Assembly (NCBI GenBank): GCA_003167555.1 | Contig: PMSN01000025.1 | Coordinates: 124,001-188,000, forward strand | DNA from: Spartobacteria bacterium | GTDB lineage: Bacteria; Verrucomicrobiota; Verrucomicrobiia; Chthoniobacterales; UBA10450 | Reading direction: 5' to 3' | Length of the DNA: 64,000 nt | In this document: one piece after another, positions 43,152-63,937 of the stretch | Numbering within the stretch: position 1 is the stretch's first letter | Layout: the number at the start of each line of letters is the position of its first letter | Notes under the pieces: model-generated | The model's input: the letters and a program-made list of their open reading frames with translations, nothing else | Databases searched by the model: none | Told to the model about the DNA's origin: nothing | Position numbers and translations under genes: made by a program

Positions 43152-43173
43152 GACGGTGCGTTAGATTTTGGGC

Positions 43174-46497: not shown

Positions 46498-46733
46498 GGG
46501 TCGAAAGGAGAAAAAGATCCCTGCGGATGTGTGTCTTCGGAGATTTTCCCCGCAGCGCGGCGACGCAGGTACTTGGCTGGGTCTTTCCCGAATGTTTCGA
46601 AACAGAGCGGACAACAGAGCGCGATCATTTGGCTTTGGATGTTGAGATGGCTGAAGCCTTCTCCGTGTCCGACCGATTTGCCGCAGACGGCGCACTGCTC
46701 GTCCCACTTGATCGCTGCATTTTCCGGCTTCAT
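46494..46733 (-). CDS. Small Cys-rich metal-binding protein of the cus operon (YHS-like)
   Basis: 79 residues, cytoplasmic or periplasmic (no signal peptide). Cys motifs CAVC near 15-18 and CCPLCFETFGKDP near 41-53 form a treble-clef or YHS-type metal site. Overlaps its neighbours on both sides by ATGA, so it must be co-translated with cusC and the 46730 gene. Likely a metal chaperone or sensor for the efflux pump, but this is inferred from position and the cysteines. I do not recognise a named family. Confidence 0.72.
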   Translation of the reverse strand: MKPENAAIKWDEQCAVCGKSVGHGEGFSHLNIQSQMIALCCPLCFETFGKDPAKYLRRRAAGKISEDTHPQGSFSPFDP

Positions 46734-47725: not shown

Positions 47726-48141
47726 AGGGCAGGCGGAGCGTGCGCCAGAATGCTCCGCTGCAAAACCAACTCCGCAAAGGTGGACGAGCCGGGCGGCCCG
47801 GTATCCGCGAAGTACGAGACGCATTTCAGTTGCCGATCATCGAAGGCGTGAATTTGCGAAACAAAATCGTAGGCGAACAGACTCGCATGCATCTGGGCAT
47901 CCGGCGCCTTGACCGGAACCGCCAAAGTCGCACGCAACGTTTTGCAGCAGGGCGACTCCTGATCGCCGCCACTGGGCTGAACCGGGGAAGGTTCGGGGCC
48001 ATGACAATGCGCCACGGGTTTCCCGGCGCTCGCTTCGATCGCGCTCAAGACACAATGATTCGAAATCGCGAACCACGCCGCCATCGTCAGCATGACGACG
48101 AAAAACTTGGACACCCCCGTGGTTTGGTGACTCACGATCAT
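47719..48141 (-). CDS. Small exported His/Cys-containing protein linked to the cus cluster
   Basis: 140 residues with an N-terminal signal or anchor (VSKFFVVMLTMAAWFAISNHC). Cysteines and histidines follow (AHCHGPEPSP, ESPCCKTLRA). It is coupled to the upstream ThDP enzyme gene by ATGA overlap. Similar short proteins occur before CusA/CzcA-type operons, but I do not know a name for the family. A metal-binding role is inference. Confidence 0.6.
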   Translation of the reverse strand: MIVSHQTTGVSKFFVVMLTMAAWFAISNHCVLSAIEASAGKPVAHCHGPEPSPVQPSGGDQESPCCKTLRATLAVPVKAPDAQMHASLFAYDFVSQIHAFDDRQLKCVSYFADTGPPGSSTFAELVLQRSILAHAPPALA

Positions 48142-49850
48142 ATTCGTTCATCCCGAATGCCTGAACGTTCAAGCGTTTTGTCCAATCGGGTGGAGTCTCC
48201 GGATGGAGCGTTGACTGGCTTCCAGCCGCGCACTCTCGCCACTTCGAGGCCGATTGTCGCCAACTGCGGACTGATGTTGTCGCGCGGAATTTTGATTTCG
48301 ATGACGGTCAACTTGCCGGAGTCCTGGGCGCGTCGGATGGCTTCGTCTAATTCGCCTTTGGTGGAGACGACGGCGGATTCACCGCCGCCAACCAATTCGC
48401 AAATCTTGTGGTAGTTCCATTGCGTGATGACGTTGAACTTGCCGTCATGGAGCTTTCGCATCGTGCCGTAGCCGTCGTTGTTCAGGATAAGAATGATGGG
48501 GTTGAGTCCGAGCCGGACCGCGGTGGAAATTTCCGTCCCGGTCATTTGAAAAGCGCCGTCGCCGACGAGGACGTACGGCCGCAGCGTGGGCCTGGCCAAA
48601 GCGACGCCAATGCTCGCGGGCACGGCGAAGCCCATCGACATATAATATGCGGGCGCGATGAATTGCGCCTGCCGCGCGCTGTGAATCCCGACCGCGCCGA
48701 AAATCGCGTCGCCCACATCAGCGACCACGCAACAACCTTCATCCAGATGCAGGGAAAGGATGCGGAAGATATCGACCGCCGTGAGTGGATCGGAGCGTTC
48801 GCGTTTCTTCAAGGGAGCGGGGACGGCGCGCGGGTTGGGATGTTGAAAGCGCTTCTGCCTGGTCGTGGCCGTCGCGAGTGAGTCGAGAAAATCGCGGAAC
48901 TGCACGGATTCGTAGCGGTGATACTGAACGTTCACGCGCTCGGTCGTGGCCAGGACGGTCCGTTTCCGATCGAGCTTCGCGGTGTAGAACCCCATGCTCA
49001 TGTCGGTGATGAACGTTCCGAGCATGATGACGAGGTCCGCCGATTCAACGTAATTGCGGACGTGCTCGTCGCTGCTCATGGCGCCGCCATAGACGCCGAG
49101 GTAAAGAGGATGGTTTTCGGGGACGGCGCTCTTGCTCAAGAGATCGGCGGCGATGGGGATGTTCATCCGCTCGGCCATCTGCACGACGAGGTGAGCCATT
49201 CGGTAGCGCGCCAGTTCCACGCCGGCGAGGATGACGGGTTTTTTCGCGGCGCGGATGAGTGCGAACGTTTCGTCGAGCGCGGCGGCCAGCGTGTACGGAT
49301 CGGATTTTTCCTGGGCGAGGGGCGCGGCGAAGGCAGTGGGAATTTCGCGGTCGACCATGTCGTGCGGCAGTTCTATGTAGACCGGGCGTTTATGCAGCAG
49401 ACACGCCTCGACGCAGCGAACAATCTCGGAAGCCGCCCGCTGTTCATCGAGCAGGACAGCGCTCGCCACGGTGACTTCATCGTAGACGCGCCGCTGGGTC
49501 TCGAAGGTCTTCACCTTGTGATGAAGGAGCGGATCTTTCTCTCGATCCTTTCGGCCGGGCGCTCCGCTGACAACGACCACGGGTGATTTTTCGGCATACG
49601 CGCCGGCGATGGCGTTGAGAACGTTGAGTCCCCCCACGCAGTAGGTGACGCAGACCAGACCGATTCCGTTGATGCGAGCATACGCGTCGGCGGCGAATCC
49701 GGCGCTGGGCTCGTGCGTCATCGTGACGTTTTTGATTTTCGATTTGTCGAGCGCGGCAAAAGTGGGAAGAGCGAAGTCGCCCGGGATGCCGAAGCTGTGG
49801 CGGACACCGCAGCGGTAAAGGTATTCGAAGAGAAATTGCCCCAATGGCAT
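48138..49850 (-). CDS. Thiamine-diphosphate-dependent decarboxylase (pyruvate/indolepyruvate decarboxylase group)
   Basis: 570 residues. The N-terminal Pyr domain has GIPGDFALPTF and the catalytic Glu in MTHEPSAGFAADAYARING. The C-terminal PP domain has the ThDP motif GDGAFQ...NNDGYGT (VGDGAFQMTGTEIS to LILNNDGYGTMRKL). HHKVKTFETQ in the middle holds the His pair typical of pyruvate and indolepyruvate decarboxylases. It non-oxidatively decarboxylates a 2-oxo acid to an aldehyde. The substrate is not readable. I start at 49850 (MPLGQFLFEYLY), where homology begins. Divergent from an AraC gene. Confidence 0.85.
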   Translation of the reverse strand: MPLGQFLFEYLYRCGVRHSFGIPGDFALPTFAALDKSKIKNVTMTHEPSAGFAADAYARINGIGLVCVTYCVGGLNVLNAIAGAYAEKSPVVVVSGAPGRKDREKDPLLHHKVKTFETQRRVYDEVTVASAVLLDEQRAASEIVRCVEACLLHKRPVYIELPHDMVDREIPTAFAAPLAQEKSDPYTLAAALDETFALIRAAKKPVILAGVELARYRMAHLVVQMAERMNIPIAADLLSKSAVPENHPLYLGVYGGAMSSDEHVRNYVESADLVIMLGTFITDMSMGFYTAKLDRKRTVLATTERVNVQYHRYESVQFRDFLDSLATATTRQKRFQHPNPRAVPAPLKKRERSDPLTAVDIFRILSLHLDEGCCVVADVGDAIFGAVGIHSARQAQFIAPAYYMSMGFAVPASIGVALARPTLRPYVLVGDGAFQMTGTEISTAVRLGLNPIILILNNDGYGTMRKLHDGKFNVITQWNYHKICELVGGGESAVVSTKGELDEAIRRAQDSGKLTVIEIKIPRDNISPQLATIGLEVARVRGWKPVNAPSGDSTRLDKTLERSGIRDERI

Positions 49851-50072
49851 GGTGGGCGGGAAGACGCCGCGCGCCCGCGCGCCCAGGTTGTTCGTGGATC
49901 GCCTGGCCCCAATGCTTTGTTCACCTGCGCAACTCGCGTGCATGGCACTATTGTGCGCAGGCGTTGGTCCTTCGGCTCACCATCCTTTGCCAAACACGGG
50001 GCGGATTTTGCCGAAGCAATTTTCGGTTGAGCAAAATGAGGTGAGTGATTAGCAAGGAACGGGGAGCGTCCC
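49851..50072. promoter_or_regulatory. Divergent promoter region between the decarboxylase and AraC genes
   Basis: 222 bases between two divergent starts, where promoters for both are expected and where the AraC-type regulator might bind. I can see no clear pair of repeats. The region includes tgtgctcccggaaatatttc just before the AraC frame. Confidence 0.4.
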
Positions 50073-50648
50073 GTGTGCTCCCGGAAATATTTCATCACTG
50101 TGAAAAAGAAATCGGGGCGGGCGGGAAAGCGAGCAACAAGGAGCAGAGCGCTTAGGGATTTCCCTGATAGAGCCGGCAAGAATTCATCGGATAGAACTGG
50201 GGCCGCATCTAATTCCGCCTCGGTGAAAACGATTTCTGAACGAAGACTGGATGGGGAGAAAGGCCGGCTCAGCAAGGCCGAGCCGCGCGAAATTTGGAAG
50301 GCCCGGAACTTCATTCACGAACACGCCAGCGAGGAGATCTCGCTGAAGATGGTGGCGAAGTCAGTCAACATCAGCGCCAATCACCTAAGCGAGAAGTTCA
50401 AGGAGGTCACCGGGGTGAATTTTGTGAAGTACGTCGCGCACAGCCGCTACGAAAAAGCGCGAGCGCTTTTGCACGATCTCAATGTGCGCGTAAGCGAGGC
50501 TGCCTTCGCCGCGGGCTTTCAATCCTTGTCGCAGTTCAATCGCGTCTTTCGAAACCTGGCCGGGAAGTCTCCGACTGAATACCGCGCTGTCGCGCGCCAA
50601 ACGCGAACGGGGTGGAACGGCGAGACCAGTGCGGAATTTCGCCCGTAG
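50073..50648 (+). CDS. AraC-family regulator (DNA-binding domain only)
   Basis: 191 residues. Only the DNA-binding part is recognisable (about 75-165): NFIHEHASEEISLKMVAKSV, the first HTH with ANHLSEKFKEVTGV, and the second with FAAGFQSLSQFNRVFRNLAG and SPTEYR. The first 70 residues are basic and unstructured, and there is no sensor domain. The start could lie later. The HTH is nearly the same as in the chimera at 9752, but complete. Probably acts on the divergent decarboxylase or on the cytochrome operon that follows. Confidence 0.8.
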   Translation: MCSRKYFITVKKKSGRAGKRATRSRALRDFPDRAGKNSSDRTGAASNSASVKTISERRLDGEKGRLSKAEPREIWKARNFIHEHASEEISLKMVAKSVNISANHLSEKFKEVTGVNFVKYVAHSRYEKARALLHDLNVRVSEAAFAAGFQSLSQFNRVFRNLAGKSPTEYRAVARQTRTGWNGETSAEFRP

Positions 50649-50650
50649 AA

Positions 50651-51532
50651 ATGCGTAGCCACCCGCGAGCGCTTCCGGTAAAACTGTGTCGCGTGTGGCA
50701 TCCAAGATTAACTCGTTCGTTCCGCGGTAAGCGCGAGAAACTCTGGTGGGTGGTCGGCGGCGGAGCGGCGCTCACCGTCGTTTTGCTTTCTTGCAGTAAC
50801 TTCGAAACAAGCCGCGCCATTCTTGCCCCGCCGAGTATTCCCGGAGCGGAATTTGTCGGGTCGAGCGAGTGCACGACCTGTCACGAAGCGATTGCGCGCG
50901 ATTTCCCGACGGCCACGCACTCGCGCCTGAAAGCGGAGGGAGACAACGCGAAGAACATCGGCTGCGAATCGTGTCACGGGCCGGGAAGTCTTCACGTGAA
51001 AAGCGGCGGCGGCGCACACACGATCATCAACCCGCGCAAATCGCCCGCGGCCTGTTTCCAATGCCATCTGGAAGTGAAGGCGAAATTCGATTTGCCGCAT
51101 CATCACCCGGTGCTCGAAGGAAAAATGAGCTGCGCCGATTGCCACAACCCGCACAAAGGCGACGCGATCAAAGGCGGCGGGGCGAATCTTCCGCAATCGA
51201 TCAAGGGCGGCGGCATCTCCTTGCTCAGCCAAAACGAGACCTGCTTCCAGTGTCACGCCGCGCAACGCGGCCCGTTTGTCTTCGCACACGAAGCGGTGCG
51301 CGAAGGCTGCGTGAGTTGTCATTCGCCGCACGGCTCCGTCAATCAGCGGATGCTAAATGAACGGAGCGCGACGCTTTGCTTGAAGTGTCATTTCCAGCAG
51401 CAAACAGTCGCGGGCCGAATTTTCATTGGCGATTCCGATCACACCAATCGGTTGCCGCAGGCCACCTGTTGGTCGGCCGGCTGTCATGAAGCGATCCATG
51501 GGTCGCAGGTGAATTCGCACCTCAGGTACTAA
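50651..51532 (+). CDS. Octahaem c-type cytochrome, MtrA/DmsE-like
   Basis: 293 residues. An N-terminal anchor or lipoprotein signal (WWVVGGGAALTVVLLSCSN, possible lipobox Cys) is followed by seven CxxCH motifs (CTTCH, CESCH, CFQCH, CADCH, CFQCH, CVSCH, CLKCH) and one CxxxxCH (CWSAGCH). This is the layout of MtrA/DmsE periplasmic cytochromes that plug an outer-membrane barrel. The next gene, 4 bases downstream, encodes such a barrel. Start at 50651 (MRSHPRALPV) is a choice between several. Confidence 0.88.
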   Translation: MRSHPRALPVKLCRVWHPRLTRSFRGKREKLWWVVGGGAALTVVLLSCSNFETSRAILAPPSIPGAEFVGSSECTTCHEAIARDFPTATHSRLKAEGDNAKNIGCESCHGPGSLHVKSGGGAHTIINPRKSPAACFQCHLEVKAKFDLPHHHPVLEGKMSCADCHNPHKGDAIKGGGANLPQSIKGGGISLLSQNETCFQCHAAQRGPFVFAHEAVREGCVSCHSPHGSVNQRMLNERSATLCLKCHFQQQTVAGRIFIGDSDHTNRLPQATCWSAGCHEAIHGSQVNSHLRY

Positions 51533-51536
51533 GGCA

Positions 51537-53813
51537 ATGCGTGATCTAATCATGAGCGCTGTTTGTCCGCGAAGCGGAGCAGCCCGTTTTGCGCGAGGCG
51601 CCGCGCTCTACGCGTGCATTGCTCTGGGCGGAAGTTATCCGCTGCACGCCGGGGACAAAGAGGTGGTGAAAACGGAAACCGCCGCGGCGACCGAGGAAGA
51701 GGAGCCCGACTTTAAGAACTGGATCGAGTTGGGAATTGGCGGGCTCAGCGTCAATGGCGACGCGGCCCAATTCAAACAGGAGCACAGAATTTCGGGCGAC
51801 ATCTTTGGCGGAATTTCGGATCTGCATCTCGAGCAGGCGGTCGGCAAGAAGGGACAATTGACGATCGATGGCCACGCGATGTTCGATAATCACGATTACG
51901 ACGTGAAGCTCGACTTATCGTTCCCGGGCGTGGGTTATATTCGCGGCGGTTACACCGAGTTTCGCAGTTGGTATGATGGCAACGGCGGATTTTCCCCGGG
52001 GAACGGACAATTCTTCACGCCGCCGGATCAGGAGATGGAGCTGGATCGCGGCGAAGCCTGGGTGGAGCTGGGATTGCGGATGCCGAACCTGCCGGAAATT
52101 ACCTTGCACTACTCGCATCTGTTTCGTGATGGCCGAAAGGATTCGACCATCTGGGGTGACACCACGCTAACCGGCCTGGCGGTCAATCCGACCCGGAAAA
52201 TTGCGCCCGCCTTCCGCGACATCAACGAGACGCGGGATATTTTCTCTGCCGATATTTTGCAAAACTTCGGCAAGACCGATATCGGCCTGGGCATGCGCTA
52301 CGAGCACAGTGAAGTAGACGATCGGCTGCAACTCGAACGCAACGCCGGCCAGCTACCGCCGGTGGTCGCAGCGCCGGGCGCGCAACGCTTTATCACTGAT
52401 AATGGCAGGAACAATCTCGATTCCTTTAACGGACATGTGACGGCGGAAACGCGTTTCAGCGATTCGCTCTGGTTCACCAGCGCCTACTCCTATTCCACGC
52501 TCGACAGCGACATCTCCGGCACCCGCATCATCGGGGCAGGATACGACTCGATGTACGGCGATCCCATTTTGACACTGCAATCCAACGATCACGGTGTCCT
52601 CAATTTGAGCGGCGTCTCGCAGGTGAACGAGCACGTGGCCAATCTCAACTTGATGTGGTTGCCCGCCAAAAAACTCACGGTGCTCGCCGCGTTCCGTTAT
52701 ACCCGTGAAGACCAGGACAGCGCCTCCAGTTTTCTCGACAGCAATACCGCGGCGAACACCGCGCCGTTCACGGCCACGAATCCCGCGGGCGGCTTCCATC
52801 AGATTACCCCGGTGCTGCGATCCGGCGATACCGCGGAGTCGTTCAATAACTTCGCGGAAAGCCTGGAACTTCGCTACACCGGCATCGATAACTGGGTCTT
52901 CTATGCGCGAGGCGAGTGGGAAGAAGAAGACGGCAACGTCCACGAACACATCGTCGCGGCGGGCCCCGTCGATCAAGGCTCGATGAACAAGGACACCGAC
53001 ATGCTGATGCAAAAATACACGGTGGGCCTGAACTGGTATCCGACGACAACGCTCAACGTTTCGGGGCAGTATTATCACAAGAGCGTGGACTACGATAACC
53101 ACTTCATCTCCGAGCTGGCCACGCCGCCGGTTGTTGGCTCGGAAAGGAGCCAGCGATTGCTTAGTCAGGAATTGGACACCGATGACGTAAATTTCCGCGT
53201 GACCTGGCGCCCGAAACTCCCGCCGAAGCTGGGCACGATCGCTTTTGTCACGCGTTACGATTACGTGCACGGCACGATCGACGGGATGTGGGGAATATCG
53301 CCCGCCGGCACACCGGGCGTAGGTCTCACCGGCACTACGCTTGCCGAACAGCAATCGGCCGTGATCACCAACCACGTCATCAGCGAAAGCGTTACCTGGA
53401 ATCCGTGCGCGCGGCTTTACCTGCAGGGGAATCTCTCTTATGTCTTAAACGAAACGGACACGCCGGCTGATTTCAACTTGATTCCGAATACGAGCCCGAC
53501 GGTCCTTGATTTCAAGAATGATTACTGGACCGCGAGCGGAGCCGCTGGATTTGTCCTCGACCAGAAGACCGATCTGCGCGCCGAATATTCCTACTATCGA
53601 GCGGACAACTCCCAGAATAATTTCCTGGTCGCCCAGCCCTACGGCATGGGCGCGACCGAGCACACTGTCTCGGCGAGTATCAGCCGGCAGATTACAAAGA
53701 ACGTCCGGCTCAAGGTGCAATACAGTTACTTTAATTACACCGACCAACTTTTCGGCGGCCACAACAACTACGAAGCGCACTCGGTCTTCTCCACGCTGCA
53801 ATTCCGTTTTTAG
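51537..53813 (+). CDS. Outer-membrane beta-barrel, MtrB/PioB-like porin for the octahaem cytochrome
   Basis: 758 residues with an exported N-terminus and a long run of alternating amphipathic strands with aromatic ends (for example GQLTIDGHAMFDNHDYDVKL and VRLKVQYSYFNYTDQLF), ending in FRF, the C-terminal Phe signature of outer-membrane barrels. Together with the preceding octahaem protein it forms a porin-cytochrome pair. In known systems the barrel holds the cytochrome so that electrons cross the outer membrane. No CxxC motif typical of some MtrB proteins is seen in its first residues. A general porin is the alternative. Confidence 0.85.
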   Translation: MRDLIMSAVCPRSGAARFARGAALYACIALGGSYPLHAGDKEVVKTETAAATEEEEPDFKNWIELGIGGLSVNGDAAQFKQEHRISGDIFGGISDLHLEQAVGKKGQLTIDGHAMFDNHDYDVKLDLSFPGVGYIRGGYTEFRSWYDGNGGFSPGNGQFFTPPDQEMELDRGEAWVELGLRMPNLPEITLHYSHLFRDGRKDSTIWGDTTLTGLAVNPTRKIAPAFRDINETRDIFSADILQNFGKTDIGLGMRYEHSEVDDRLQLERNAGQLPPVVAAPGAQRFITDNGRNNLDSFNGHVTAETRFSDSLWFTSAYSYSTLDSDISGTRIIGAGYDSMYGDPILTLQSNDHGVLNLSGVSQVNEHVANLNLMWLPAKKLTVLAAFRYTREDQDSASSFLDSNTAANTAPFTATNPAGGFHQITPVLRSGDTAESFNNFAESLELRYTGIDNWVFYARGEWEEEDGNVHEHIVAAGPVDQGSMNKDTDMLMQKYTVGLNWYPTTTLNVSGQYYHKSVDYDNHFISELATPPVVGSERSQRLLSQELDTDDVNFRVTWRPKLPPKLGTIAFVTRYDYVHGTIDGMWGISPAGTPGVGLTGTTLAEQQSAVITNHVISESVTWNPCARLYLQGNLSYVLNETDTPADFNLIPNTSPTVLDFKNDYWTASGAAGFVLDQKTDLRAEYSYYRADNSQNNFLVAQPYGMGATEHTVSASISRQITKNVRLKVQYSYFNYTDQLFGGHNNYEAHSVFSTLQFRF

Positions 53814-53829: not shown

Positions 53830-54909
53830 ATGCGAGTGGTTGGATCAAGGGCAGCATCGATATCTTTTCTTGCTTTCGCGTTCCTCGCCGCGTGCGACCG
53901 GAACGACCAGCAGATCAGAGTCTACCGCGTCGCCAAAGCGCCACTCGAAATGACGCCTCCTGTGGACGCGGCGATGCCAACGAATGCGTCTTCTCCTTCG
54001 TCCCTCTCTACAGCTGCTCCAAGCACGACGATGGCTGGAATCGTCCCGCCGAATTGGGAACCGCAGCCTCTTTCGCAAATGCGGCAGGCCAGTTTTCTGG
54101 TTCACGGCGACAACGGCGCGGTCGCCGATATTTCCTTCGTCACGCTCGGCCCTGCCGCGGGAAACATTCTCGATAACATCAATCGCTGGCTCGGGCAGCT
54201 CGCCCAACCGCCGATCACCCAGGATAAACTGGCCGGCACGATCGAGCGGTTGCTGCCCACCGCGCGCGGCGATGTCGCGATCGTCGATCTTTCCGGACAA
54301 CCGGAGAACGGCGACGCGACCAAAGACGGGCGCATCATCGGCGCCATCGCATCCGAGGAAGGCAAGACCGCTTTCTACAAGATGCGCGGCAATCCCGCGC
54401 TCGTCGGCGCGCAGAAAGAAAATTTTTTGAAATGGGTCAACTCATCTCGCGGCGCGGATTCCTCTGCGAGCGCCACGACGCCAGCGCCGCCGCCAAGTTC
54501 CGACAAGCCGCAAATAAAATGGGAAGTTCCTGCGGGCTGGTCGCCCGCGGCACCAGCGCCGATGCGCTACGCGAGTTTCAGCGTCGAAAAAAATGGCGAG
54601 AAGGCGGATATCTCCGTGGTGACCTTCGCCGGCGATGGCGGGAGCGACGCGGATAATATTAATCGGTGGCGTCAACAAATCGGTTTGCCCGCCGCGGAGG
54701 CGAGCGCTCTCAATGCAATGATCGTTCCCGTGAAAGCTGGCGAGATCAATTTCTCCACGGTCGATTTGGCGGGTGAAACGGCGCACATGCTCGCGGGTTG
54801 GACGCGCCGCGACGGACGCGCCTGGTTTTTCAAGTTAACCGGACCCAAGGCTGTAGTGGAGCAGGAGAAGGCGAAGTTCATGACGTTTCTCCAGTCGGTC
54901 CGCTTCTGA
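53830..54909 (+). CDS. Lipoprotein with two copies of a PsbP-like/DUF domain
   Basis: 359 residues with a lipobox (SISFLAFAFLAAC). The two halves align: PPNWEPQPLSQMRQASFLV then ISFVTLGPAAGNILDNINRW in the first, and PAGWSPAAPAPMRYASFSV then ISVVTFAGDGGSDADNINRW in the second, separated by a Ser/Ala/Pro linker. This is an internal duplication. Each half resembles the small exported proteins at 14923 and 18908. Location beside porin and cytochrome biogenesis genes suggests a role in that envelope system. Function unknown. Confidence 0.75.
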   Translation: MRVVGSRAASISFLAFAFLAACDRNDQQIRVYRVAKAPLEMTPPVDAAMPTNASSPSSLSTAAPSTTMAGIVPPNWEPQPLSQMRQASFLVHGDNGAVADISFVTLGPAAGNILDNINRWLGQLAQPPITQDKLAGTIERLLPTARGDVAIVDLSGQPENGDATKDGRIIGAIASEEGKTAFYKMRGNPALVGAQKENFLKWVNSSRGADSSASATTPAPPPSSDKPQIKWEVPAGWSPAAPAPMRYASFSVEKNGEKADISVVTFAGDGGSDADNINRWRQQIGLPAAEASALNAMIVPVKAGEINFSTVDLAGETAHMLAGWTRRDGRAWFFKLTGPKAVVEQEKAKFMTFLQSVRF

Positions 54910-54912
54910 AAT

Positions 54913-56088
54913 ATGCTGCGCAAACTGATCGATCTTCTCACGTCGTTGAAGCTGACGATCGCCTGTCTCGCCGCGGCCATCGTGCTTATCTTTGCCGGCA
55001 CGATTGCGCAGGTTCATCTCGGCATTTACGAAGCGCAGCAGCGCTACTTCCAGAGTTTGTTTGTCTGGTGGCCGCCGGAAGGGCGCGGCTTCAGGATCCC
55101 AATCTTTCCCGGCGGACATCTGATCGGCGCGATTCTGCTCATCAATCTCGTCGCGGCACACGCCAAACGTTTTCGTTTGGTTTGGCGCAAACTCGGTATT
55201 CATCTCACCCATGCCGGACTCATCATCATGCTCGCGGGCGGTTTGTTTACCGATCTCTTCGCGGTGGAAAGTCACATGCGCTTGAGCGGCGGCGACACAA
55301 AAAACTATTCCGAGAGCCCGCGTTTGATGGAACTTGCCGTCATCGACACGAGCGACCCGGAGTTGGATCAGGTGACCGCGATTCCGGAAACGGTCTTGCG
55401 GCAAAGCCGGACGATCGAACATCCGAGCCTGCCTTTTCGAATCAACATCCGTAATTTTTTCCAGAACTCACGGCTCCACATGCTCGGCGAAGCGGGAAGC
55501 ACTGCCAGGCCGATTGCGAATCAGGGACCCGGCGCGCAGATCGCGGTGGAAGCGGCCCCGCGCGTGACCGGGATGGACGATCGCGACGTGATGAGCGTGG
55601 CGATCGAGATCGTGCCGATCGAATTCGTGAGCGGCCGAGCCGCGCCGCCGCTCGGGACGTGGCTGGTATCGGACGCGCTCGGGGCGCCGCAGACATTTTC
55701 GTGCGCGGGCCGCACCTGGCAGATCGCGTTGCGCCCGGCGCGTTACTACAAACCGTATAGCGTCACGCTCCAGAAGTTCACGCACGAGCGTTACCCCGGC
55801 ACCGAGATTCCAAAAGATTTTTCCAGCCGCGTGACGCTGGTCGATCCGGAGCGTTCGGTGAATCGCGATGTCCTGATCTACATGAATCATCCGCTGCGTT
55901 ATCGCGGCGAAACATTTTACCAGGCCGGTTTTGAGAAAGACGATCGCACCACTATCTTGCAAGTCGTGCGCAACCCCACTTTCATCGCGCCTTACATTGC
56001 CTGCATTGTCGTTGCCGCCGGATTGCTCGTGCAATTCGGCTACCATCTCATCGGTTTTTCGCGACGGAGGAGAACAGCACTGGCATGA
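54913..56088 (+). CDS. resB: ResB-type cytochrome c biogenesis protein
   Basis: 391 residues. N-terminal membrane helices with LTSLKLTIACLAAAIVLIFAG and HLTHAGLIIMLAGGLFTDLF, a periplasmic ResB domain with MNHPLRYRGETFYQAGF, and a C-terminal helix (IAPYIACIVVAAGLLVQFG). System II (Ccs) assembly: ResB and CcsA carry haem out and attach it to apocytochromes. Overlaps the ccsA gene by ATGA and follows the lipoprotein after 3 bases. The neighbouring genes encode about 26 haem-attachment motifs, which explains its position. Confidence 0.9.
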   Translation: MLRKLIDLLTSLKLTIACLAAAIVLIFAGTIAQVHLGIYEAQQRYFQSLFVWWPPEGRGFRIPIFPGGHLIGAILLINLVAAHAKRFRLVWRKLGIHLTHAGLIIMLAGGLFTDLFAVESHMRLSGGDTKNYSESPRLMELAVIDTSDPELDQVTAIPETVLRQSRTIEHPSLPFRINIRNFFQNSRLHMLGEAGSTARPIANQGPGAQIAVEAAPRVTGMDDRDVMSVAIEIVPIEFVSGRAAPPLGTWLVSDALGAPQTFSCAGRTWQIALRPARYYKPYSVTLQKFTHERYPGTEIPKDFSSRVTLVDPERSVNRDVLIYMNHPLRYRGETFYQAGFEKDDRTTILQVVRNPTFIAPYIACIVVAAGLLVQFGYHLIGFSRRRRTALA

Positions 56089-58061
56089 AACGTTTCTTTC
56101 CCATGCTTGTCTTTGTCGGCGCCCTCTTGTGGGTGACCTCAAGCTGGCTACCGCAAAAAACCCCGAGCAGCGAGGTCAATCTCACCGGCTTCGGAAAAAT
56201 TCCGGTGCTCGTCGGCGGCCGGGTCAAACCGCTCGATACCGTCGCGCGCAATTCGCTCCTGATTCTTCAGGGCCGCCAGCGCGTCAGCACGCCGGAGATC
56301 AGCGAACCGTTCGTCTCATCGCCGACCGAGTGGCTCCTCGACGTCTGCTTCCGCCCGGAAAAAGCCGACACCTACCCGACCTTCGCGATCGACAACACCG
56401 AACTCCTCTCGCTGCTCGGCAAAAACGACGACGACCTTAGCATCAATTACACCTCGACGCCGAAAAAAATCCTTGCCGTCTTCGGCTTCCTTCCGAGCCG
56501 CCACCGCCGCTTCGCCTTCCGCGACCTTGCGCCGTACCTGAGAACAATCGACGAGCAGGGCGATCAATCGGACAAGCTCCAGTCAGTCCAGCGCTCGGCC
56601 TATCAGAACGCGGTCGTCAATTTGCGCAACGCGCTCGTCCTTTATCAGCGCTTGAAGAACAGCGTGCAGCCAGAGGGCACGGAAAACTTTGTGGCCGAAC
56701 TGGACGCGTTCGACAACGCGTTGCCGGAGGCGGCGAAAGCGGCGCGGCAACGCGAGGCCGGCGGAACTTTCGATCAAGCAAAGCTCAACCGCGTCGTGGA
56801 ACTCCTTCAGCGTTATCAGAGGATCGCCGAGGCGGCTTACGTCCTTGCCGTCCCTTCGGCGAAGCCGAGTGAGTGGCATTCGATCGGAGAAAATCTCGTT
56901 GAATCCGTCGCTGCGGGGAAAATTGATCCGATCGTAAAACTGTATGCGCAGATCGGGGATGCGTATCGCGCCAACAATCGATCGCTCTTCAGTCAGCAGG
57001 TCGATCTTCTCGCCGGTGCGCTGGCAAAGGAACAACCCACCGCAGCCAAACGCACGTCGTTCGAGTTCTTCTTCAACCAGGTCGATCCGTTCACGCACAG
57101 CATGGTTCTCTACGTCCTGGCATTTCTGCTCGCGTGCGGATCGTGGCTCGGCTGGAACCGCCCGCTGAATCGCGCCGCGTTTTACCTGCTGTTCCTCGCG
57201 CTCGCGGTGCACACCTTCGGCCTGGTCTCGCGGATGTATCTTCAGGAACGTCCGCCCGTCACCAATCTCTATTCCTCGGCCATTTTCATCGGTTGGGGCG
57301 CGGTCATCGTCTCGCTCATCCTCGAACGGATTTTCCGCGATGGAATTGGCGCGGCCTGTGCCGGCGCGATTGGCTTCATCACGCTCATCATCGCGCATCA
57401 TCTCGCGGGCAGCGGCGACACGCTCGAGATGTTGCAAGCCGTGCTCGACACCAACATCTGGCTGGCCACGCACGTTGTCGCGATCACGACCGGTTATTCC
57501 GCCATGTTCCTGGCTGGGATGCTCGCGACGATCTATATCGTGCGCGGCGTCTTCACGCGCTCGTTGAAAAAAGAAACGGCCGATAGCCTCACACGCATGA
57601 CTTACGGCGTGGTTTGTTTTGCCACGCTCTTTAGTTTCGTCGGCACCGTCCTCGGCGGCATCTGGGCCGACCAATCGTGGGGACGCTTCTGGGGTTGGGA
57701 CCCGAAAGAGAACGGCGCCGTGCTCATCGTGCTTTGGTGCGCGATCATTTTGCACGCGCGCTGGGGCGGCTTCATTCGGCAGCGCGGCCTCATGATCATG
57801 GCGATTTTCGGAAACGTGATCACGAGCTTCTCCTGGTTCGGCGTCAACATGCTCGGCGTCGGTCTGCATTCCTACGGCTTCATGGAGAAAGCGTTTCCAT
57901 GGCTCGTCGGATTCATCATCAGCCAGCTCGCCTTAATGGGCGTGGCCGCGATGCCGCTCGAGCGGTGGCGAAGTTTTCGCACCTTTCCGAGCGCGCCGCG
58001 TGGAAAGGATAAGTTGAACTTTGTTCCTCCGGGGCTACCAGTAGAAACAACGTCAGAGTAA
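56085..58061 (+). CDS. ccsA: CcsA-type haem handling protein with large N-terminal domain
   Basis: 658 residues. The first 330 residues after an N-terminal helix are a soluble, helix-rich domain (VARNSLLILQGRQRV, LLQRYQRIAEAAYVLAV). The rest has about eight membrane helices and the haem-binding WWD motif WADQSWGRFWGWDPKENGAV near 530-549. Conserved His flank it (IIAHHLAGSG, ATHVVAITTGY). This long form is common where ResB is separate. Works with ResB to load haem onto c-type cytochromes. The role of the N-terminal domain is unknown. Confidence 0.92.
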   Translation: MKRFFPMLVFVGALLWVTSSWLPQKTPSSEVNLTGFGKIPVLVGGRVKPLDTVARNSLLILQGRQRVSTPEISEPFVSSPTEWLLDVCFRPEKADTYPTFAIDNTELLSLLGKNDDDLSINYTSTPKKILAVFGFLPSRHRRFAFRDLAPYLRTIDEQGDQSDKLQSVQRSAYQNAVVNLRNALVLYQRLKNSVQPEGTENFVAELDAFDNALPEAAKAARQREAGGTFDQAKLNRVVELLQRYQRIAEAAYVLAVPSAKPSEWHSIGENLVESVAAGKIDPIVKLYAQIGDAYRANNRSLFSQQVDLLAGALAKEQPTAAKRTSFEFFFNQVDPFTHSMVLYVLAFLLACGSWLGWNRPLNRAAFYLLFLALAVHTFGLVSRMYLQERPPVTNLYSSAIFIGWGAVIVSLILERIFRDGIGAACAGAIGFITLIIAHHLAGSGDTLEMLQAVLDTNIWLATHVVAITTGYSAMFLAGMLATIYIVRGVFTRSLKKETADSLTRMTYGVVCFATLFSFVGTVLGGIWADQSWGRFWGWDPKENGAVLIVLWCAIILHARWGGFIRQRGLMIMAIFGNVITSFSWFGVNMLGVGLHSYGFMEKAFPWLVGFIISQLALMGVAAMPLERWRSFRTFPSAPRGKDKLNFVPPGLPVETTSE

Positions 58062-58080: not shown

Positions 58081-58410
58081 ATGAAAGCACTCGTCTCCAT
58101 CGTCATTAGTCTATTCGCCGCCTCGGCCGTGTCTCTCCACGCCGCGGACGCGAAAGCAAACTGGGATGCCAACTGCGCGCAGTGCCACGGCAAGACCGGC
58201 AACGCCGACACCAAGATGGGAAAGACCTTGAACGCGAAAGATCTGACCGATGCGAAAGTGCAGGCTGCGTTCACGGACGCCAAGGCCACGCAATCGATCA
58301 CTGAAGGCGTGAAGGACGGCGGCAAAACGACCATGAAAGCGTTCGGCGGGAAACTGACCGCCGACGAAATCAAAGCGCTCGTCGTCTACGTGCGCACGCT
58401 GAAGAAATAA
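58081..58410 (+). CDS. Small exported class I cytochrome c
   Basis: 109 residues: signal peptide (MKALVSIVISLFAASAVSLHA), one CAQCH haem motif near residue 34, and a C-terminal Met-containing axial ligand region (TTMKAFGGKLT). It resembles the c6/c551-type carriers. The neighbouring gene codes for a close relative of exactly the same length, so the two arose by tandem duplication. Probably a soluble electron carrier between the bc-type complex and an oxidase or the porin-cytochrome. Confidence 0.9.
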   Translation: MKALVSIVISLFAASAVSLHAADAKANWDANCAQCHGKTGNADTKMGKTLNAKDLTDAKVQAAFTDAKATQSITEGVKDGGKTTMKAFGGKLTADEIKALVVYVRTLKK

Positions 58411-58489: not shown

Positions 58490-58819
58490 ATGAAACGAAA
58501 AGCATTCCTCTTCATGATGGTCATGATGACCTCGGCCGGCATGGCTGTGGCAGCAGATGCGACGGGCCTTTGGAACCAGCACTGCGCATCGTGCCATGGA
58601 AAAGACGGCACCGGCAATACCACGATGGGCAAGAAGAATGGCGTCAAAGATTACACGGACGCCAAAGTCCAGGCTGCCTTCAGTGATGGGGAGGCGGCTA
58701 AGGCAATCAAGGAAGGTGTGAAGGAAAACGGCAAGGACAAGATGAAGCCGTTCGGCGAGAAGCTCTCGGACGCCGACATTAAGGCGCTCGTTGCCTACAT
58801 TCGTTCCTTCAAGAAGTAA
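58490..58819 (+). CDS. Small exported class I cytochrome c, paralogue
   Basis: 109 residues: signal peptide (MKRKAFLFMMVMMTSAGMAVAA), CASCH motif near residue 33, Met ligand region (DKMKPFGEKLS). It shares the YTDAKVQAAFSD and IKALVAYIRSFKK patterns with the upstream gene. Start at 58490 has an AGAAAGAAG 7 bases before it. An upstream in-frame ATG at 58445 would remove the signal peptide. Confidence 0.9.
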   Translation: MKRKAFLFMMVMMTSAGMAVAADATGLWNQHCASCHGKDGTGNTTMGKKNGVKDYTDAKVQAAFSDGEAAKAIKEGVKENGKDKMKPFGEKLSDADIKALVAYIRSFKK

Positions 58820-58948: not shown

Positions 58949-60427
58949 ATGGCCGATGCCTCAACGCCGCGCCGCTCTTTCAAGCGGCTCTTTCGCAACT
59001 GGCTTAGCTGGGCCGGAATCGTTCTTGCGGCCAGCGCGCTCTTCGCCTTCTTCCTCCTTCTCGCGATCGATCAGTTCGCGGGGCACCGTAACCCGTACGT
59101 CGGCATTCTCGCGTATGTGGTGGCGCCGCTTTTTCTCCTTGTCGGAGTTGCTCTCATCCTGGCGGGCGCTTTTTTCCAGCGTCGGAATGAGCGCCGCGCC
59201 GTACGGGGGGCCAAGCCTCTCGTCATCGATTTATCGCGACGGCGCGACCGCAGAATTCTGGCCGTGTTCGCGGCAAGTGCTGTCGCCTTTTTATTTGTTA
59301 CCGCTCTGGGCAGCTACCAGACTTACCAATACACGGAGTCCGTGCAGTTCTGTGGCCAGAGATGCCATCTGCCCATGGAGCCGGAGTTTGTCGGATCGCA
59401 GCATACCGCGCATGCGAAAGTGGAGTGCGTCGCGTGCCACGTCGGGCCTGGCGCGGCTGCGTATTTCAGGACCAAAATAAACGGCGTCAAACAGCTCTAT
59501 CACGCGATCGCTAACGATTTCGAGCGCCCAATTTATGTCACCGCGGCCAACCCCCGCCCGGCGCAGGCAATTTGCGAGCAATGCCATTGGCCTCAGAAAT
59601 ATGCCGGGAGCGTCGAACGCACCTATCGCCATTTTTTGTCCGATGAAAAGAACACGCCTTTCACCGTGCGGCTCTTGCTCAACGTCGGAGGCGGCGATCC
59701 ATCGAATGGCCCCGAGGGCGGCATTCATTGGCACATGAATATCGCGAACAAGATCGAATACATCGCGGCGGACGACCGGCTTCTCTCCATTCCATGGGTG
59801 AGGATGACGGATCCGAAAGGAGTGACCACTGAGTACCGCACGCCGGATTTCAAAGGAGATCCGTCGCAATCTCGCATCCGCCGAATGGACTGCATGGATT
59901 GCCACAGCCATCCCGCCCACAAAGTGCATTCGCCTAACGACGCCGTCGATCTGGCCCTGGCCACGGGCCGGATCGATCCCAGCGTCCCGTGGGCCAAGGC
60001 AAAAATCGTGGCCGCGCTCGTGAAGCCGTACTCCGCCAAGCCGGAAGCGTTGCAGAAAATCGCCGCGTCGTTGCGCGAAGATTATCCTGATCCCGCCCAG
60101 GCGGATCGTCTCATCGGCGAAGCGCAGGCGATTTATCGCGACAATTTCTTTCCCGAAGTGAAACTCGATTGGCGCACGCACCCCGATTTTGTCGGTCACA
60201 AGAGTTGGGATGGTTGCTTCCGCTGCCATGACGGCAAACACACCTCGGCCGACGGCAAGATGTCGATCAAGGCGAGCGACTGCCGATCGTGTCACCTGAT
60301 TCTTGCCCAGGGCAGCGGCGAAAAACTCGAGCAGGTAAATCCGAAAGGGCACGATTTCATGCACATCGATGCGGAATACGCCGAGTATTCCTGCACCGAA
60401 TGCCACACCGGCGGGATTCAGAAATGA
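58949..60427 (+). CDS. NapC/NirT-like heptahaem inner-membrane cytochrome (ImcH-like)
   Basis: 492 residues with three N-terminal membrane helices (IVLAASALFAFFLLLAI, ILAYVVAPLFLLVGVALILA and ILAVFAASAVAFLFVTA). Seven haem motifs follow: CGQRCH (with three residues between the Cys), CVACH, CEQCH, CMDCH, CFRCH, CRSCH and CTECH. The size and heptahaem count match ImcH, the NapC/NirT-family quinol-oxidising cytochrome used by Geobacter for electron transfer to high-potential acceptors. That equivalence is inference. It would take electrons from menaquinol and pass them to periplasmic carriers. Confidence 0.85.
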   Translation: MADASTPRRSFKRLFRNWLSWAGIVLAASALFAFFLLLAIDQFAGHRNPYVGILAYVVAPLFLLVGVALILAGAFFQRRNERRAVRGAKPLVIDLSRRRDRRILAVFAASAVAFLFVTALGSYQTYQYTESVQFCGQRCHLPMEPEFVGSQHTAHAKVECVACHVGPGAAAYFRTKINGVKQLYHAIANDFERPIYVTAANPRPAQAICEQCHWPQKYAGSVERTYRHFLSDEKNTPFTVRLLLNVGGGDPSNGPEGGIHWHMNIANKIEYIAADDRLLSIPWVRMTDPKGVTTEYRTPDFKGDPSQSRIRRMDCMDCHSHPAHKVHSPNDAVDLALATGRIDPSVPWAKAKIVAALVKPYSAKPEALQKIAASLREDYPDPAQADRLIGEAQAIYRDNFFPEVKLDWRTHPDFVGHKSWDGCFRCHDGKHTSADGKMSIKASDCRSCHLILAQGSGEKLEQVNPKGHDFMHIDAEYAEYSCTECHTGGIQK

Positions 60428-60511: not shown

Positions 60512-60997
60512 ATGTCGCGATCTGAGATGGAAGAACAGACACTGACGACTTCCCATCCGAAAAAGTCACGCCGTGATTTTTTGGATCTTCTCGTGGGCGC
60601 GAGCTTCCTCGGCTGGCTGGTCACGATGGCGTACCCCATCATTCGGTATCTCAAGCCGCTGCCGCAGACTGGCGCCTCGGGACCCACGCATTTGACTCGC
60701 GATGAGTCGTCCAAGCTGGAGCAAAATAAATTCGTGATCGTTCCGGTGAGCGGCCAGCGCGTCATCGTTTTGCAAGCGCCCGACCAGCAACTCTTCGCCT
60801 TCAGCGCCAAGTGTACGCATGAAGGCTGCACGATCACGTATCAGCCGGCGCAATCCGTTCTTTGGTGTCCCTGCCATGATGGCCGCTTCGATTTAAATGG
60901 TCGGGTGTTGTCTGGGCCGCCGCCTCAAGCGCTGGCGAAGTATGACGCTCGCCGGCAGCCGGATGGGAGCATTGTCATTTCTGAACAAAAAGCCTGA
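60512..60997 (+). CDS. Rieske 2Fe-2S protein of a bc-type complex
   Basis: 161 residues. A twin-arginine signal (KKSRRDFLDLLVGASFLG) leads to the Rieske domain with the cluster ligands CTHEGC near 101-106 and CPCHDGRFD near 118-126. It accepts one electron from menaquinol at the Qo site of cytochrome b. The start is 60512 or the ATG at 60527. I keep the first. The next gene encodes cytochrome b, one base away, so the pair forms the core of a quinol:cytochrome c reductase. Confidence 0.93.
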   Translation: MSRSEMEEQTLTTSHPKKSRRDFLDLLVGASFLGWLVTMAYPIIRYLKPLPQTGASGPTHLTRDESSKLEQNKFVIVPVSGQRVIVLQAPDQQLFAFSAKCTHEGCTITYQPAQSVLWCPCHDGRFDLNGRVLSGPPPQALAKYDARRQPDGSIVISEQKA

Positions 60998-60998
60998 C

Positions 60999-62393
60999 AT
61001 GAACGGACCCGGCAAGGGTGGAGGGCTGCTCGGCTGGCTGGATCGGCGTTATCAATTAACCGCGCTGACCGAATTCCTGCGCCACAAGGAGGTGCCGTTG
61101 GGCTCGCACTGGATGGGCTGGTATTACCTCGGCGGAATCACCCTGTTTTTTTTCATCGTCCAGGTCGTGACCGGAGTTCTCCTGCTCATGTACTACCAGC
61201 CGGGGGAAACGACGGCTTACGAAAGCATTCGTTTTCTCACAACCAAGGTCCCTTTCGGCTGGCTGATTCGCTCGATCCATAGTTGGAGCGCGCACCTAAT
61301 GATCATTTCGTTGGTGCTCCACATGTTCAGCACGATGATGCTGAAGGCCTACCGCCCGCCGCGCGAATTGACCTGGGTTTCCGGCTACCTTTTGTTTCTG
61401 CTGACGCTCGGCTTTGGTTTCTCCGGCTATCTGCTGCCTTGGAACAAACTCGCTTACTTCGCCACGACGGTAGGCACCAATATCGTGGCTTCGGTCCCGC
61501 TCTTGGGCAGCTGGCTCTTGCAGGTATTGCGCGGCGGACAGGATGTTACGATCAATACCCTGTATCGGTTCTTTGCCGGTCACGTCGTCATTCTGCCATT
61601 GGCGGTTGTCGGCTTCATCGGTCTGCACATCGTCTTCATTCAACGGCAGGGAATGGCGCCGCCGCTCGGTGCCAAAGTCGCCCCGCGCGGGATGAAATTT
61701 TTTCCCAGCTTCGCGCTGCGCGATCTGTTGTTGTGGCTGGCCTGTTTGATGGTGCTGCTGGCGCTGGCGGTCTTCCTTCCTTATGGCCCGGGTATCCCGG
61801 GGATGGATTGGGAACTGGGTCAGAAGGCGGATCCTCTGGCGCCCGCCTATCCTGGCATAAAACCGGAATGGTATTTCCTGTGGGAGTATCAATTGCTGAA
61901 AGAATTTCCGCCGCACCTTTTCGGCCTGGAGGGACCGCAGGTCTGCTTGTTGTTGATCGCGCTCATGTTCGGCATTTGGGGTCTCATTCCGTGGCTCGAC
62001 CGCCGCGTGCGCCGGGACCAACCATCCCCCGCTTTCAGCGATTTCGGCTGGGCCGCTCTCCTGTTTTTGACCTACCTCACGTTGCTGGCTTGGGACATCG
62101 GAGCCGGCGCGGCCAGCGGAGCAGGGGATGAGTTAACCGCACTGCGCAACATCGCGCGCGTCTGCGCCTGGTGGACTTTGGGAGCTGGCGCGCTGGTTAT
62201 TGTCGTTCGCTACTTGCGCTACGAGCATCGCTGGTTCCTGCTTAGCGGGGCGGCGTTGTTGCAGGTAACGCTGCATGGCCTTGTCGGTCTTACTTATCTG
62301 CTGGCCGGCGTGATCTCGGTAGTCCTGGCCGCGGTCTGGATTGTCGTGGCTCATTTCGTCGGTTCGCGGACCGATCGGAGAAGCGAGACGTGA
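60999..62393 (+). CDS. Cytochrome b of a bc-type quinol oxidoreductase (fused b6/subunit IV type plus extra helices)
   Basis: 464 residues. The N-terminal b6-like half has the haem ligands HSWSAHLMIISLVLHMF and GHVVILPLAVVGFIGLH. The C-terminal half has the Qo motif PGIKPEWYFLWEYQLLK (PEWY) near residue 285, plus two or three more helices at the end. No cytochrome c1 or f gene follows. Instead a nonahaem cytochrome gene overlaps it by GTGA, so that protein is the likely electron exit of the complex. Confidence 0.93.
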   Translation: MNGPGKGGGLLGWLDRRYQLTALTEFLRHKEVPLGSHWMGWYYLGGITLFFFIVQVVTGVLLLMYYQPGETTAYESIRFLTTKVPFGWLIRSIHSWSAHLMIISLVLHMFSTMMLKAYRPPRELTWVSGYLLFLLTLGFGFSGYLLPWNKLAYFATTVGTNIVASVPLLGSWLLQVLRGGQDVTINTLYRFFAGHVVILPLAVVGFIGLHIVFIQRQGMAPPLGAKVAPRGMKFFPSFALRDLLLWLACLMVLLALAVFLPYGPGIPGMDWELGQKADPLAPAYPGIKPEWYFLWEYQLLKEFPPHLFGLEGPQVCLLLIALMFGIWGLIPWLDRRVRRDQPSPAFSDFGWAALLFLTYLTLLAWDIGAGAASGAGDELTALRNIARVCAWWTLGAGALVIVVRYLRYEHRWFLLSGAALLQVTLHGLVGLTYLLAGVISVVLAAVWIVVAHFVGSRTDRRSET

Positions 62394-63937
62394 GAACGCT
62401 CCTCATCATCATTGGTGGGCTTATGTTTTCCAGCGCCGCTTTTGCGGTGGACCAAAACTCTACCAAGCCGAATCCGAAGCTGGCCGAGATGATCGCGGCC
62501 AAAGACGAAAGCGGCAAAGCGATCATGGGCCCGGAGGAGCAGACCTACTTCAATGGCCTGAACGACAATCTAAGGGAACTGCTCAATCAAGCCGTGCAAA
62601 AAGAGACCATCACGCGTCCGGAGCATTTGGCCGCGCTGCTCTCGCTGCAATTGCGGCCGCAAAAGATGGAGCTGGTCCTGCAAAACAACTGTCTTCTTTG
62701 CCACAGCGACTCGGCCAACCATTCGGCCGACACCCTTTTCACTCTCACCCCGGCTCCAGGCGCCACGCCATCGCACATGAACCTCAAGGAGGTTGTCGAA
62801 GATGTTCATTTTCGTCGCGGCGTTTCGTGTGCCGGTTGTCATGGCGGCGACCCCACCGCCGATCTCGGTCATGCGCACGTGAAAGAATGGCCGGAGAAAG
62901 ATCGCGACAAGAATCGCGAGTGGATCGTTCAATTCTGCGCGCGTTGCCACTCCGATCCAACCTTCATGCATCAGTTCAATCCCGCGCTGCCGACCGATCA
63001 GTTGGCGAAGTTCAAGGAGAGTCCGCATGGCCGGACCCTGCTGGAGAAACATGACAGCCGCGCGGCGCAATGTGTAAGCTGCCACGGCGTTCACGGCATT
63101 CGCCCGGCGAAGGACCCGCAATCAAAAGTCTATGCCCGGACTGTGCCGGAAACGTGCGGGGCCTGCCATGCCGATTCCAAAGTCATGGCCGGCTTCACGC
63201 GCGCGGATGGCTCACCTTTGCCGACCACCCAGCTCGCGGAGTATCGCTTGAGCGTTCACGGTCAAGCGCTGCTGGGACGGGGCGATCTGGGCGCGCCCGC
63301 GTGTAACACTTGCCACGGCAACCACGCCGCCACGCCGCCTGGTATCGCAGGAGTGAGCCGAAGTTGCAGCCTTTGCCATTCGGCCAATGCCAGTCTGTTC
63401 GATGGCAGCAAACACAAACAGGCCTTCGATCGCAATAATTGGTCCGAATGCGCCAAGTGCCATGGCAACCATACCATCGCCAAAACAAACGATTCGATGT
63501 TGGCGTCAGGAAAGGGCTCGTTGTGCGGTGATTGCCATCGCGAGTTCGCCAAGGACAATCCCAATTGCATCGCCACCGCGGATTACTTTCGCCAAACGAT
63601 CACGCGCATCGACGAGGCGCGGAACAATTTTAGCGCAATCTCCGAGAAACTCGCGGCCAAAGGTCTGGATGTGGAGCCGATCAGCAACCAGTTAACCGAA
63701 CTCACTGATGGCCTGAAGAAATCGCGCACGCACATCCATTCATTCAGCCGGGATAATTTTCAACAAGTGGCGTTGCCGGCGGAACAAGCCGTCCAGAACA
63801 CGGACGCCCTGGTGAAGAAAGCGCGGGAAGAATACAATTCCCGGCAGGTCGGTTTGGCCGCGAGCATCGGACTAATCGGACTCCTGATGCTGACGATTTA
63901 CTTAAAGCTGCGGCGGTTGGAGAAGCCAGGCGAGTGA
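62390..63937 (+). CDS. Nonahaem c-type cytochrome with C-terminal membrane anchor
   Basis: 515 residues, GTG start. Signal peptide (LLIIIGGLMFSSAAFA), nine CxxCH motifs (CLLCH, CAGCH, CARCH, CVSCH, CGACH, CNTCH, CSLCH, CAKCH, CGDCH), a helical stretch (about 380-470) and one C-terminal membrane helix (GLAASIGLIGLLMLTIYLKL). It replaces cytochrome c1 downstream of the Rieske/cytochrome b pair. I know of no named family for it with confidence. The CxxCHxxH pattern recalls the doubled-CXXCH cytochromes. Overlaps cytochrome b and the next gene by GTGA. Confidence 0.9.
   Translation: MRTLLIIIGGLMFSSAAFAVDQNSTKPNPKLAEMIAAKDESGKAIMGPEEQTYFNGLNDNLRELLNQAVQKETITRPEHLAALLSLQLRPQKMELVLQNNCLLCHSDSANHSADTLFTLTPAPGATPSHMNLKEVVEDVHFRRGVSCAGCHGGDPTADLGHAHVKEWPEKDRDKNREWIVQFCARCHSDPTFMHQFNPALPTDQLAKFKESPHGRTLLEKHDSRAAQCVSCHGVHGIRPAKDPQSKVYARTVPETCGACHADSKVMAGFTRADGSPLPTTQLAEYRLSVHGQALLGRGDLGAPACNTCHGNHAATPPGIAGVSRSCSLCHSANASLFDGSKHKQAFDRNNWSECAKCHGNHTIAKTNDSMLASGKGSLCGDCHREFAKDNPNCIATADYFRQTITRIDEARNNFSAISEKLAAKGLDVEPISNQLTELTDGLKKSRTHIHSFSRDNFQQVALPAEQAVQNTDALVKKAREEYNSRQVGLAASIGLIGLLMLTIYLKLRRLEKPGE

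Follow-up and report, generated by a model that had tools for sequence, protein, structure and literature searches.

Porin-cytochrome gene pairs have been predicted in Verrucomicrobia before. He et al. (2017) reported a porin gene beside the gene of a periplasmic cytochrome with eight haem-binding sites in six Verrucomicrobia metagenome-assembled genomes (MAGs) from a humic bog, named homologs in Opitutus (Opitutus terrae) and 'Ca. Udaeobacter copiosus', and proposed electron transfer to humics (PMC5615132); the verrucomicrobial pair is mentioned again in PMC6344600. Here we analyse a pair of this type in a DNA stretch of 64,000 nucleotides (hereafter the window; contig PMSN01000025.1 of a Spartobacteria bacterium, positions 124,001 to 188,000), where an earlier note had pointed out the gene of an octahaem cytochrome followed by that of an outer-membrane beta-barrel protein. 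Since octahaem pairs had already been predicted by He et al., the present pair is a further case of a predicted kind, and what is new here is the respiratory gene set travelling with it, a richer context than the earlier note saw.

The pairs of He et al., compared by description only, resemble the present one in having a porin gene next to that of a cytochrome with eight haem sites, and a porin of at least 20 predicted strands is a mark of their type; in the window barrel, 24 segments were counted with a home-made score. A lipobox, a CX4CH haem site, a partner resembling the Geobacter protein ImcH, and a bc/oxidase part are seen here and do not appear in their account of the pairs (PMC5615132). 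The MtrAB, MtoAB and PioAB systems share with the window an MtrA-related cytochrome and the order of the two genes, and no MtrC accompanies the pair, as in MtoAB and PioAB. They differ in having ten haems where the window cytochrome has eight; the latter also carries a lipobox-like cysteine, and its barrel lies outside PF11854. For both proteins the nearest NCBIfam models are those of the Geobacter sulfurreducens pair GSU2203 (OmcK)-GSU2204 (NF041028 and NF041027), each matched far below its cut-off. Clusters described in 2026 (PMC13264449) likewise combine a conduit, bc1 genes (petB/petC) and genes of ImcH-like or NapC-like proteins; they encode decahaem cytochromes, the genomes with a porin-cytochrome conduit (PCC) are mostly Gammaproteobacteria or Acidobacteriota, and the description of the clusters mentions no oxidase. 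PCC4 clusters have been published in PMC5566968. Among the matches listed in searches of published titles and abstracts on Verrucomicrobia, ImcH, CbcL, extracellular electron transfer and Udaeobacter cytochromes, none describes the present operon.

The cytochrome and barrel pair

The pair is an obligate unit, cytochrome and barrel always occurring together in the order. Of the order's 147 genomes, 15 encode the barrel, and exactly these 15 also encode the octahaem cytochrome (E 1e-20 or better, with a search model that includes sequences from those 15 genomes); the two genes are adjacent in every case, the barrel being split between contigs in G136 and G145. Across the phylum, 22 of 387 genomes encode the barrel. 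Outside the order, the octahaem gene lies directly upstream in 18 of the 19 barrel genomes, the exception being G202, where the barrel is in pieces. Within genera the occurrence of the pair is uneven (four of six sampled genomes of the window's genus carry it), as expected of a trait subject to gain and loss. The window itself comes from a genome of 4.2 Mb (29 contigs, 98% complete), and among named relatives the nearest is L004, a Spartobacteria MAG whose barrel is 71% identical. Both genes stand on the forward strand where the earlier note had placed them (Table 1), separated by 4 bases (51533-51536), and the open reading frame (ORF) of the barrel gives 758 residues with a C-terminal Phe, again as claimed.

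The cytochrome contains seven CX2CH motifs and one CX4CH motif (CWSAGCH), so that the label 'octahaem' holds if the latter is counted and drops to seven on CX2CH alone. Shuffled versions of the sequence contain a mean of 0.08 CX2CH motifs (maximum 2 in 1000 shuffles). Retention of all eight sites in each of the 33 sequences compared (18 from outside the order and 15 from within it, the window's among them) speaks for a genuine eighth site. This site aligns with the last haem site of MtrA. Kinship with MtrA, as proposed in the earlier note, is borne out by the closest solved structure, chain A of PDB entry 6R2Q (E 2.2e-27 with the single sequence, 9.1e-30 with a 15-row profile); the entry is Shewanella baltica MtrAB (PMC10654088), chain A of which is listed under the deposited molecule name 'Cystathionine beta-synthase'. 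The nearest NCBIfam models, NF041028 (GSU2203; 4.5e-50, 170.6 bits against a cut-off of 325) and TIGR03508 (DmsE; 3e-48), both match below their cut-offs. Two starts can be considered for the gene, an ATG at 50651 (293 aa) or a GTG at ~50693 (279 aa), and several relatives start at the latter. All 33 cytochromes share an invariant cysteine within a lipobox-like stretch (window: LLSC); the protein is probably a lipoprotein, and its place of anchoring is likewise predicted.

The barrel protein is less easily placed. Its Pfam matches are weak (BBP2 7e-05, Porin_2 0.00076), and NF041027 (GSU2204 family), a family termed MtrB/PioB family barrel in PMC13188914, matches at 4.6e-06 over ~80 residues near the C-terminus, scoring 25.7 bits against a cut-off of 350; the model matches 4 of 30 barrels. 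PF11854 (MtrB_PioB) finds nothing in the window barrel or in its own genome, and only 1 of the 30 aligned barrels (E 0.0046). No MtrB came up when the PDB was searched with barrel profiles. The earlier claim of an MtrAB/PioAB-type gene pair thus stands as regards the MtrA-related cytochrome and the strict pairing, and falls short in the barrel, for which membership of the MtrB/PioB family (PF11854) is not supported. A barrel-like pattern is nevertheless evident: 24 alternating-hydrophobic segments were counted, against 10.0 +- 2.9 in shuffled sequences (maximum 18 in 200 shuffles; threshold 3.0, 30-row alignment), using a home-made score of alternating hydrophobicity and not a dedicated barrel predictor. 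The pattern stays well over the shuffles from a threshold of 2.5 up, with a small excess at 1.5 (47 against 42.6). An earlier count on 12 barrels (29 against 24.1 +- 3.5 shuffled) was unconvincing. The split barrels of G136 and G145 and that of G051 were excluded from barrel alignments A1 and A5, and the broken G202 barrel from A5. The G051 gene (L023:3244-5421) has one in-frame TAA and is either a decaying copy or an assembly error; that genome also lacks an ImcH-like gene.

Respiratory genes travelling with the pair

The operon partners were overlooked in the earlier note and say more about the role of the pair than the pair alone. The two genes are the 5' part of a longer same-strand gene run that reaches the window end and continues beyond it, and which we infer to be a single transcript. 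Next to the pair lie genes for a lipoprotein, ResB and CcsB; then come two for class I cytochromes c and one for a heptahaem NapC-like protein, and last those for the Rieske protein, cytochrome b and the nine-haem cytochrome c (Table 1). Beyond the window follow a CuA-type subunit II fused to a cytochrome c, a ba3-type oxidase subunit I and an SCO-like protein, the last named by eye and with no NCBIfam match. Subunit I is of the B type (ba3-like; PDB 7deg E 1.4e-173, 1ehk 1e-106). As the earlier note had stated, no MtrC-like gene is found in the operon. The gene order up to the nine-haem gene is retained in G008, a genome from the family of the window, and also in G095, where only the lipoprotein gene is missing; it is found in pieces in G111 and G058.

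The NapC-like protein has 492 residues with three hydrophobic segments, one CX3CH and six CX2CH motifs, a layout shared by nine relatives. ImcH proteins of the Geobacter group are described as having 495-519 residues, three transmembrane segments, a CX3CH beside the membrane domain and six CX2CH (PMC6295460), and the product of 58949-60427 has this architecture, the comparison being with the published features. The setting differs: here the gene lies beside a porin-cytochrome pair, whereas the ImcH homologs surveyed in PMC6295460 were reported from Fe(III)-reducing bacteria only and none beside mtrAB/mtoAB.

The partners co-occur with the pair. The NapC-like (ImcH-type) protein is encoded in 12 of the 147 genomes of the order, 11 of which have the pair; the twelfth (G070) holds a C-terminal fragment. 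Full-length nine-haem proteins were found in five genomes (the window's own included), all with the pair, and partial matches in G093 and G105, also pair genomes. Close forms of the ba3-type oxidase (at least 83% identity) are likewise confined to five genomes, each of which has the pair, and a further 50 genomes matched only through distant oxidases (at most 37%); the oxidase is located elsewhere in the genome in G008 and G058. Fisher tests across the order gave 1.3e-12 (ImcH-like), 5.6e-6 (nine-haem) and 5.6e-6 (oxidase), and within family f1 (11 genomes with the pair, 18 without) 0.0014, 0.0039 and 0.0039. Genera g4 and g5 each include one sampled pair genome (G111 and G058) with all partners, and their four sampled genomes that lack the pair (G037, G103, G099 and G107) also lack close forms of the partners.

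The NapC-like protein recurs in 13 of 18 loci outside the order. Nine of these 18 loci (L064, L065, L066, L069, L070, L071, L073, L074 and L078) encode a protein with 10-13 haem sites followed by a part with several transmembrane segments, and a cytochrome b561 domain was present in both of the two such ORFs scanned. These ORFs were considered as surface cytochromes and rejected as such: the b561-type domain (two scanned) and the transmembrane segments after the haem part (nine loci) identify them as CbcL-like inner-membrane proteins (for CbcL of Geobacter, see PMC6295460). With ImcH-type and CbcL-like proteins near the pair, both proposed Geobacter quinol oxidases have look-alikes beside it, the CbcL-like one in loci of the window's relatives. 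Searching the window's own genome with the 11-haem ORF of a relative gave the nine-haem gene of the operon as the sole match. A scan of that genome for haem-pair patterns had poor recall, missing even the octahaem gene, and no absence can be concluded from it. Two ten-haem proteins are encoded there on the minus strand, L083:4108-7986 (G000 C23; 1293 aa, LVIVD repeats) and L081:9535-11046 (G000 C18; 504 aa, N-terminal membrane segment), and are possible outer-surface or relay partners.

Function and direction of electron flow

Extracellular electron exchange, suggested in the earlier note and proposed by He et al. for their octahaem pairs (PMC5615132), is the best-fitting function of the pair, given the MtrA kinship of the cytochrome, the strict pairing and the co-travelling partners. 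We favour, with some reserve, a porin-cytochrome conduit that links the quinone pool with a redox partner outside the cell, probably for electron export. From the computed gene order, haem sites, MtrA kinship, barrel-like pattern, strict pairing and co-travelling partners we infer the complex itself, its insertion, a lipid anchor, a substrate and a direction, in the following model. Quinol would be oxidised by the ImcH-type protein, and perhaps also by a complex of the Rieske protein, cytochrome b and the nine-haem cytochrome, and the small class I cytochromes c would relay the electrons to the octahaem protein. This putative lipoprotein, probably at the inner leaflet of the outer membrane and inserted in the barrel, would act as a haem wire across the membrane, from which electrons would exit through the barrel to an outside acceptor, e.g. 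humics or Fe(III)/Mn(IV). The downstream ba3-type oxidase would open a route from these same cytochromes to O2 whenever oxygen is available.

Several results weigh against this model. The barrel has no detectable MtrB/PioB kinship by sequence, and AlphaFold2 runs on two-row alignments (window and L004) lent no structural support, with a predicted local distance difference test (pLDDT) score of 25.6 for the barrel and 28.3 for the cytochrome. The Fisher values are too small because the genomes are related, and four genomes (G019, G051, G091 and G145) have the pair but no ImcH-like protein, a different Rieske/cytochrome b/c set adjoining the pair instead. The class I cytochromes and the oxidase, moreover, suit a high-potential inward chain at least equally, and direction is the weakest step of the export model.

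In an inward conduit, the octahaem protein would receive electrons from an outside donor, e.g. Fe(II) or reduced humics, and hand them to the class I cytochromes, from where they would go downhill to the ba3-type oxidase and uphill to the Rieske/cytochrome b or ImcH-type complex, as in organisms with MtoAB or PioAB. We regard it as rather unlikely, even though the operon offers many of its parts: monohaem class I cytochromes adjoin the pair, the B-type oxidase co-travels with it, no MtrC-like gene is present, and a bc-type complex is found in the operon or, where the ImcH-like gene is missing, beside the pair. Export is instead indicated by the ImcH type, reported in PMC6295460 from Fe(III) reducers only, by the CbcL-like proteins of relatives, though the CbcL type serves both directions, by RuBisCO not being found in the own genome (other carbon-fixation routes were not searched), and by the humic habitats that He et al. 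describe (PMC5615132). The close oxidase that an inward chain would feed is also missing in 10 of the 15 pair genomes. PioAB-type Fe(II) oxidation, to which the earlier note had likened the pair, is accordingly weakened by the ImcH-type partner, the CbcL-like proteins and the missing RuBisCO, and is kept alive by the co-travelling ba3-type oxidase.

The strict pairing and adjacency across several families, the MtrA kinship of the cytochrome and the quinol-oxidase partners also make it improbable that there is no extracellular wire at all, in which case the barrel would be an ordinary porin, or the outer-membrane partner of a surface enzyme that has escaped recognition, with the cytochrome storing or relaying electrons for it in the periplasm. 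That reading would fit the barrel matches, which are all weak and to general porin families, and an operon that holds no surface haem protein; the complex of cytochrome and barrel is, after all, itself a proposal of the conduit model. At the opposite extreme, one mobile operon might supply heterotrophic soil Verrucomicrobia with a whole electron-uptake respiratory chain, from the octahaem lipoprotein conduit and the class I cytochromes to two quinone complexes (ImcH-type and Rieske/b/nine-haem), with a haem lyase and a ba3-type oxidase of its own. The idea is doubtful, but if true, electrons from minerals or humics could be passed to O2 to supplement the energy supply.

Soils commonly harbour Verrucomicrobia of this type, hardly any of which have been cultured. 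Should the favoured conduit work, some of them would exchange electrons with minerals or humics, with consequences for carbon turnover in wet soils. The conserved partners (ImcH-type, CbcL-type and bc/oxidase) turn a guess about two genes into a chain that is testable piece by piece.

Gene coordinates and neighbouring loci

Table 1. Features of the proposed conduit operon within the window, with the matches or motifs on which each name is based.
Feature	Position	Strand	Evidence
AraC-family helix-turn-helix (HTH) protein	50073..50648	+	HTH_18 E 5e-21; stops 2 bases ahead of the cytochrome gene
Octahaem MtrA-like cytochrome c, probably lipoprotein	50651..51532	+	7 CX2CH + 1 CX4CH; 6r2q_A match
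Lipobox-like cysteine (residue 48, LLSC), preceded by basic then hydrophobic stretch	50792..50794	+	invariant 33/33
Eighth, atypical haem site CWSAGCH (CX4CH)	51467..51487	+	CX4CH at same place 33/33
Outer-membrane beta-barrel protein, 758 aa	51537..53813	+	alternating-hydrophobic pattern; weak BBP2, Porin_2, NF041027 matches
Predicted lipoprotein, duplicated domain of no known family	53830..54909	+	no Pfam or NCBIfam match
ResB-like cytochrome c biogenesis protein	54913..56088	+	PF05140 E 6.2e-20
CcsB/CcsA-like haem lyase	56085..58061	+	TIGR03144 2e-37 (under cut-off); PF01578 9.7e-25
Monohaem class I cytochrome c	58081..58410	+	Cytochrome_CBB3 2.5e-12, Cytochrom_C 3.2e-10
Monohaem class I cytochrome c	58490..58819	+	Cytochrom_C 7.6e-13
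ImcH-type inner-membrane heptahaem cytochrome (NapC-like)	58949..60427	+	PF03264 1.1e-10; 3 transmembrane segments, CX3CH at residue 135, six CX2CH
Rieske iron-sulphur protein	60512..60997	+	PF00355 3.5e-15
Cytochrome b (b6/bc type)	60999..62393	+	PF00033 4.9e-50; start picked by eye
Nine-haem cytochrome c, C-terminal membrane anchor	62390..63937	+	9 CX2CH; hydrophobic segment at residue 487

In family f1 the AraC-type HTH gene immediately precedes the pair in 11 of 11 genomes, whereas it does so at none of the four other loci of the order. The predicted lipoprotein encoded at 53830-54909 adjoins ResB/CcsB in several families, even where these sit away from the pair, and is a candidate for a new cytochrome c maturation factor.

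Divergent from the operon, a thiamine-diphosphate decarboxylase-like gene (48138-49943, minus strand; named by eye) has the same neighbour position in G008 and G111. Further upstream, also on the minus strand, 39879-46707 holds RND-type metal efflux genes resembling CusA, CusB and TolC, the names being given by eye on the basis of ORF size and translation. Beyond the window, on the minus strand of L002:4726-10051 (contig C12:191726-197051), another membrane redox complex may be encoded beside the conduit operon, with porin-like, monohaem cytochrome c, DsrP/NrfD-like membrane and DsrO-like ferredoxin proteins (NCBIfam: DsrO 8e-55, DsrP 4.7e-32, both below cut-off). At L002:11345-18455 lie ORFs resembling pyruvate:ferredoxin oxidoreductase (1224 aa) and ADP-forming acetate-CoA ligase (940 aa); these were named by eye and, if named rightly, would hint at anaerobic metabolism.

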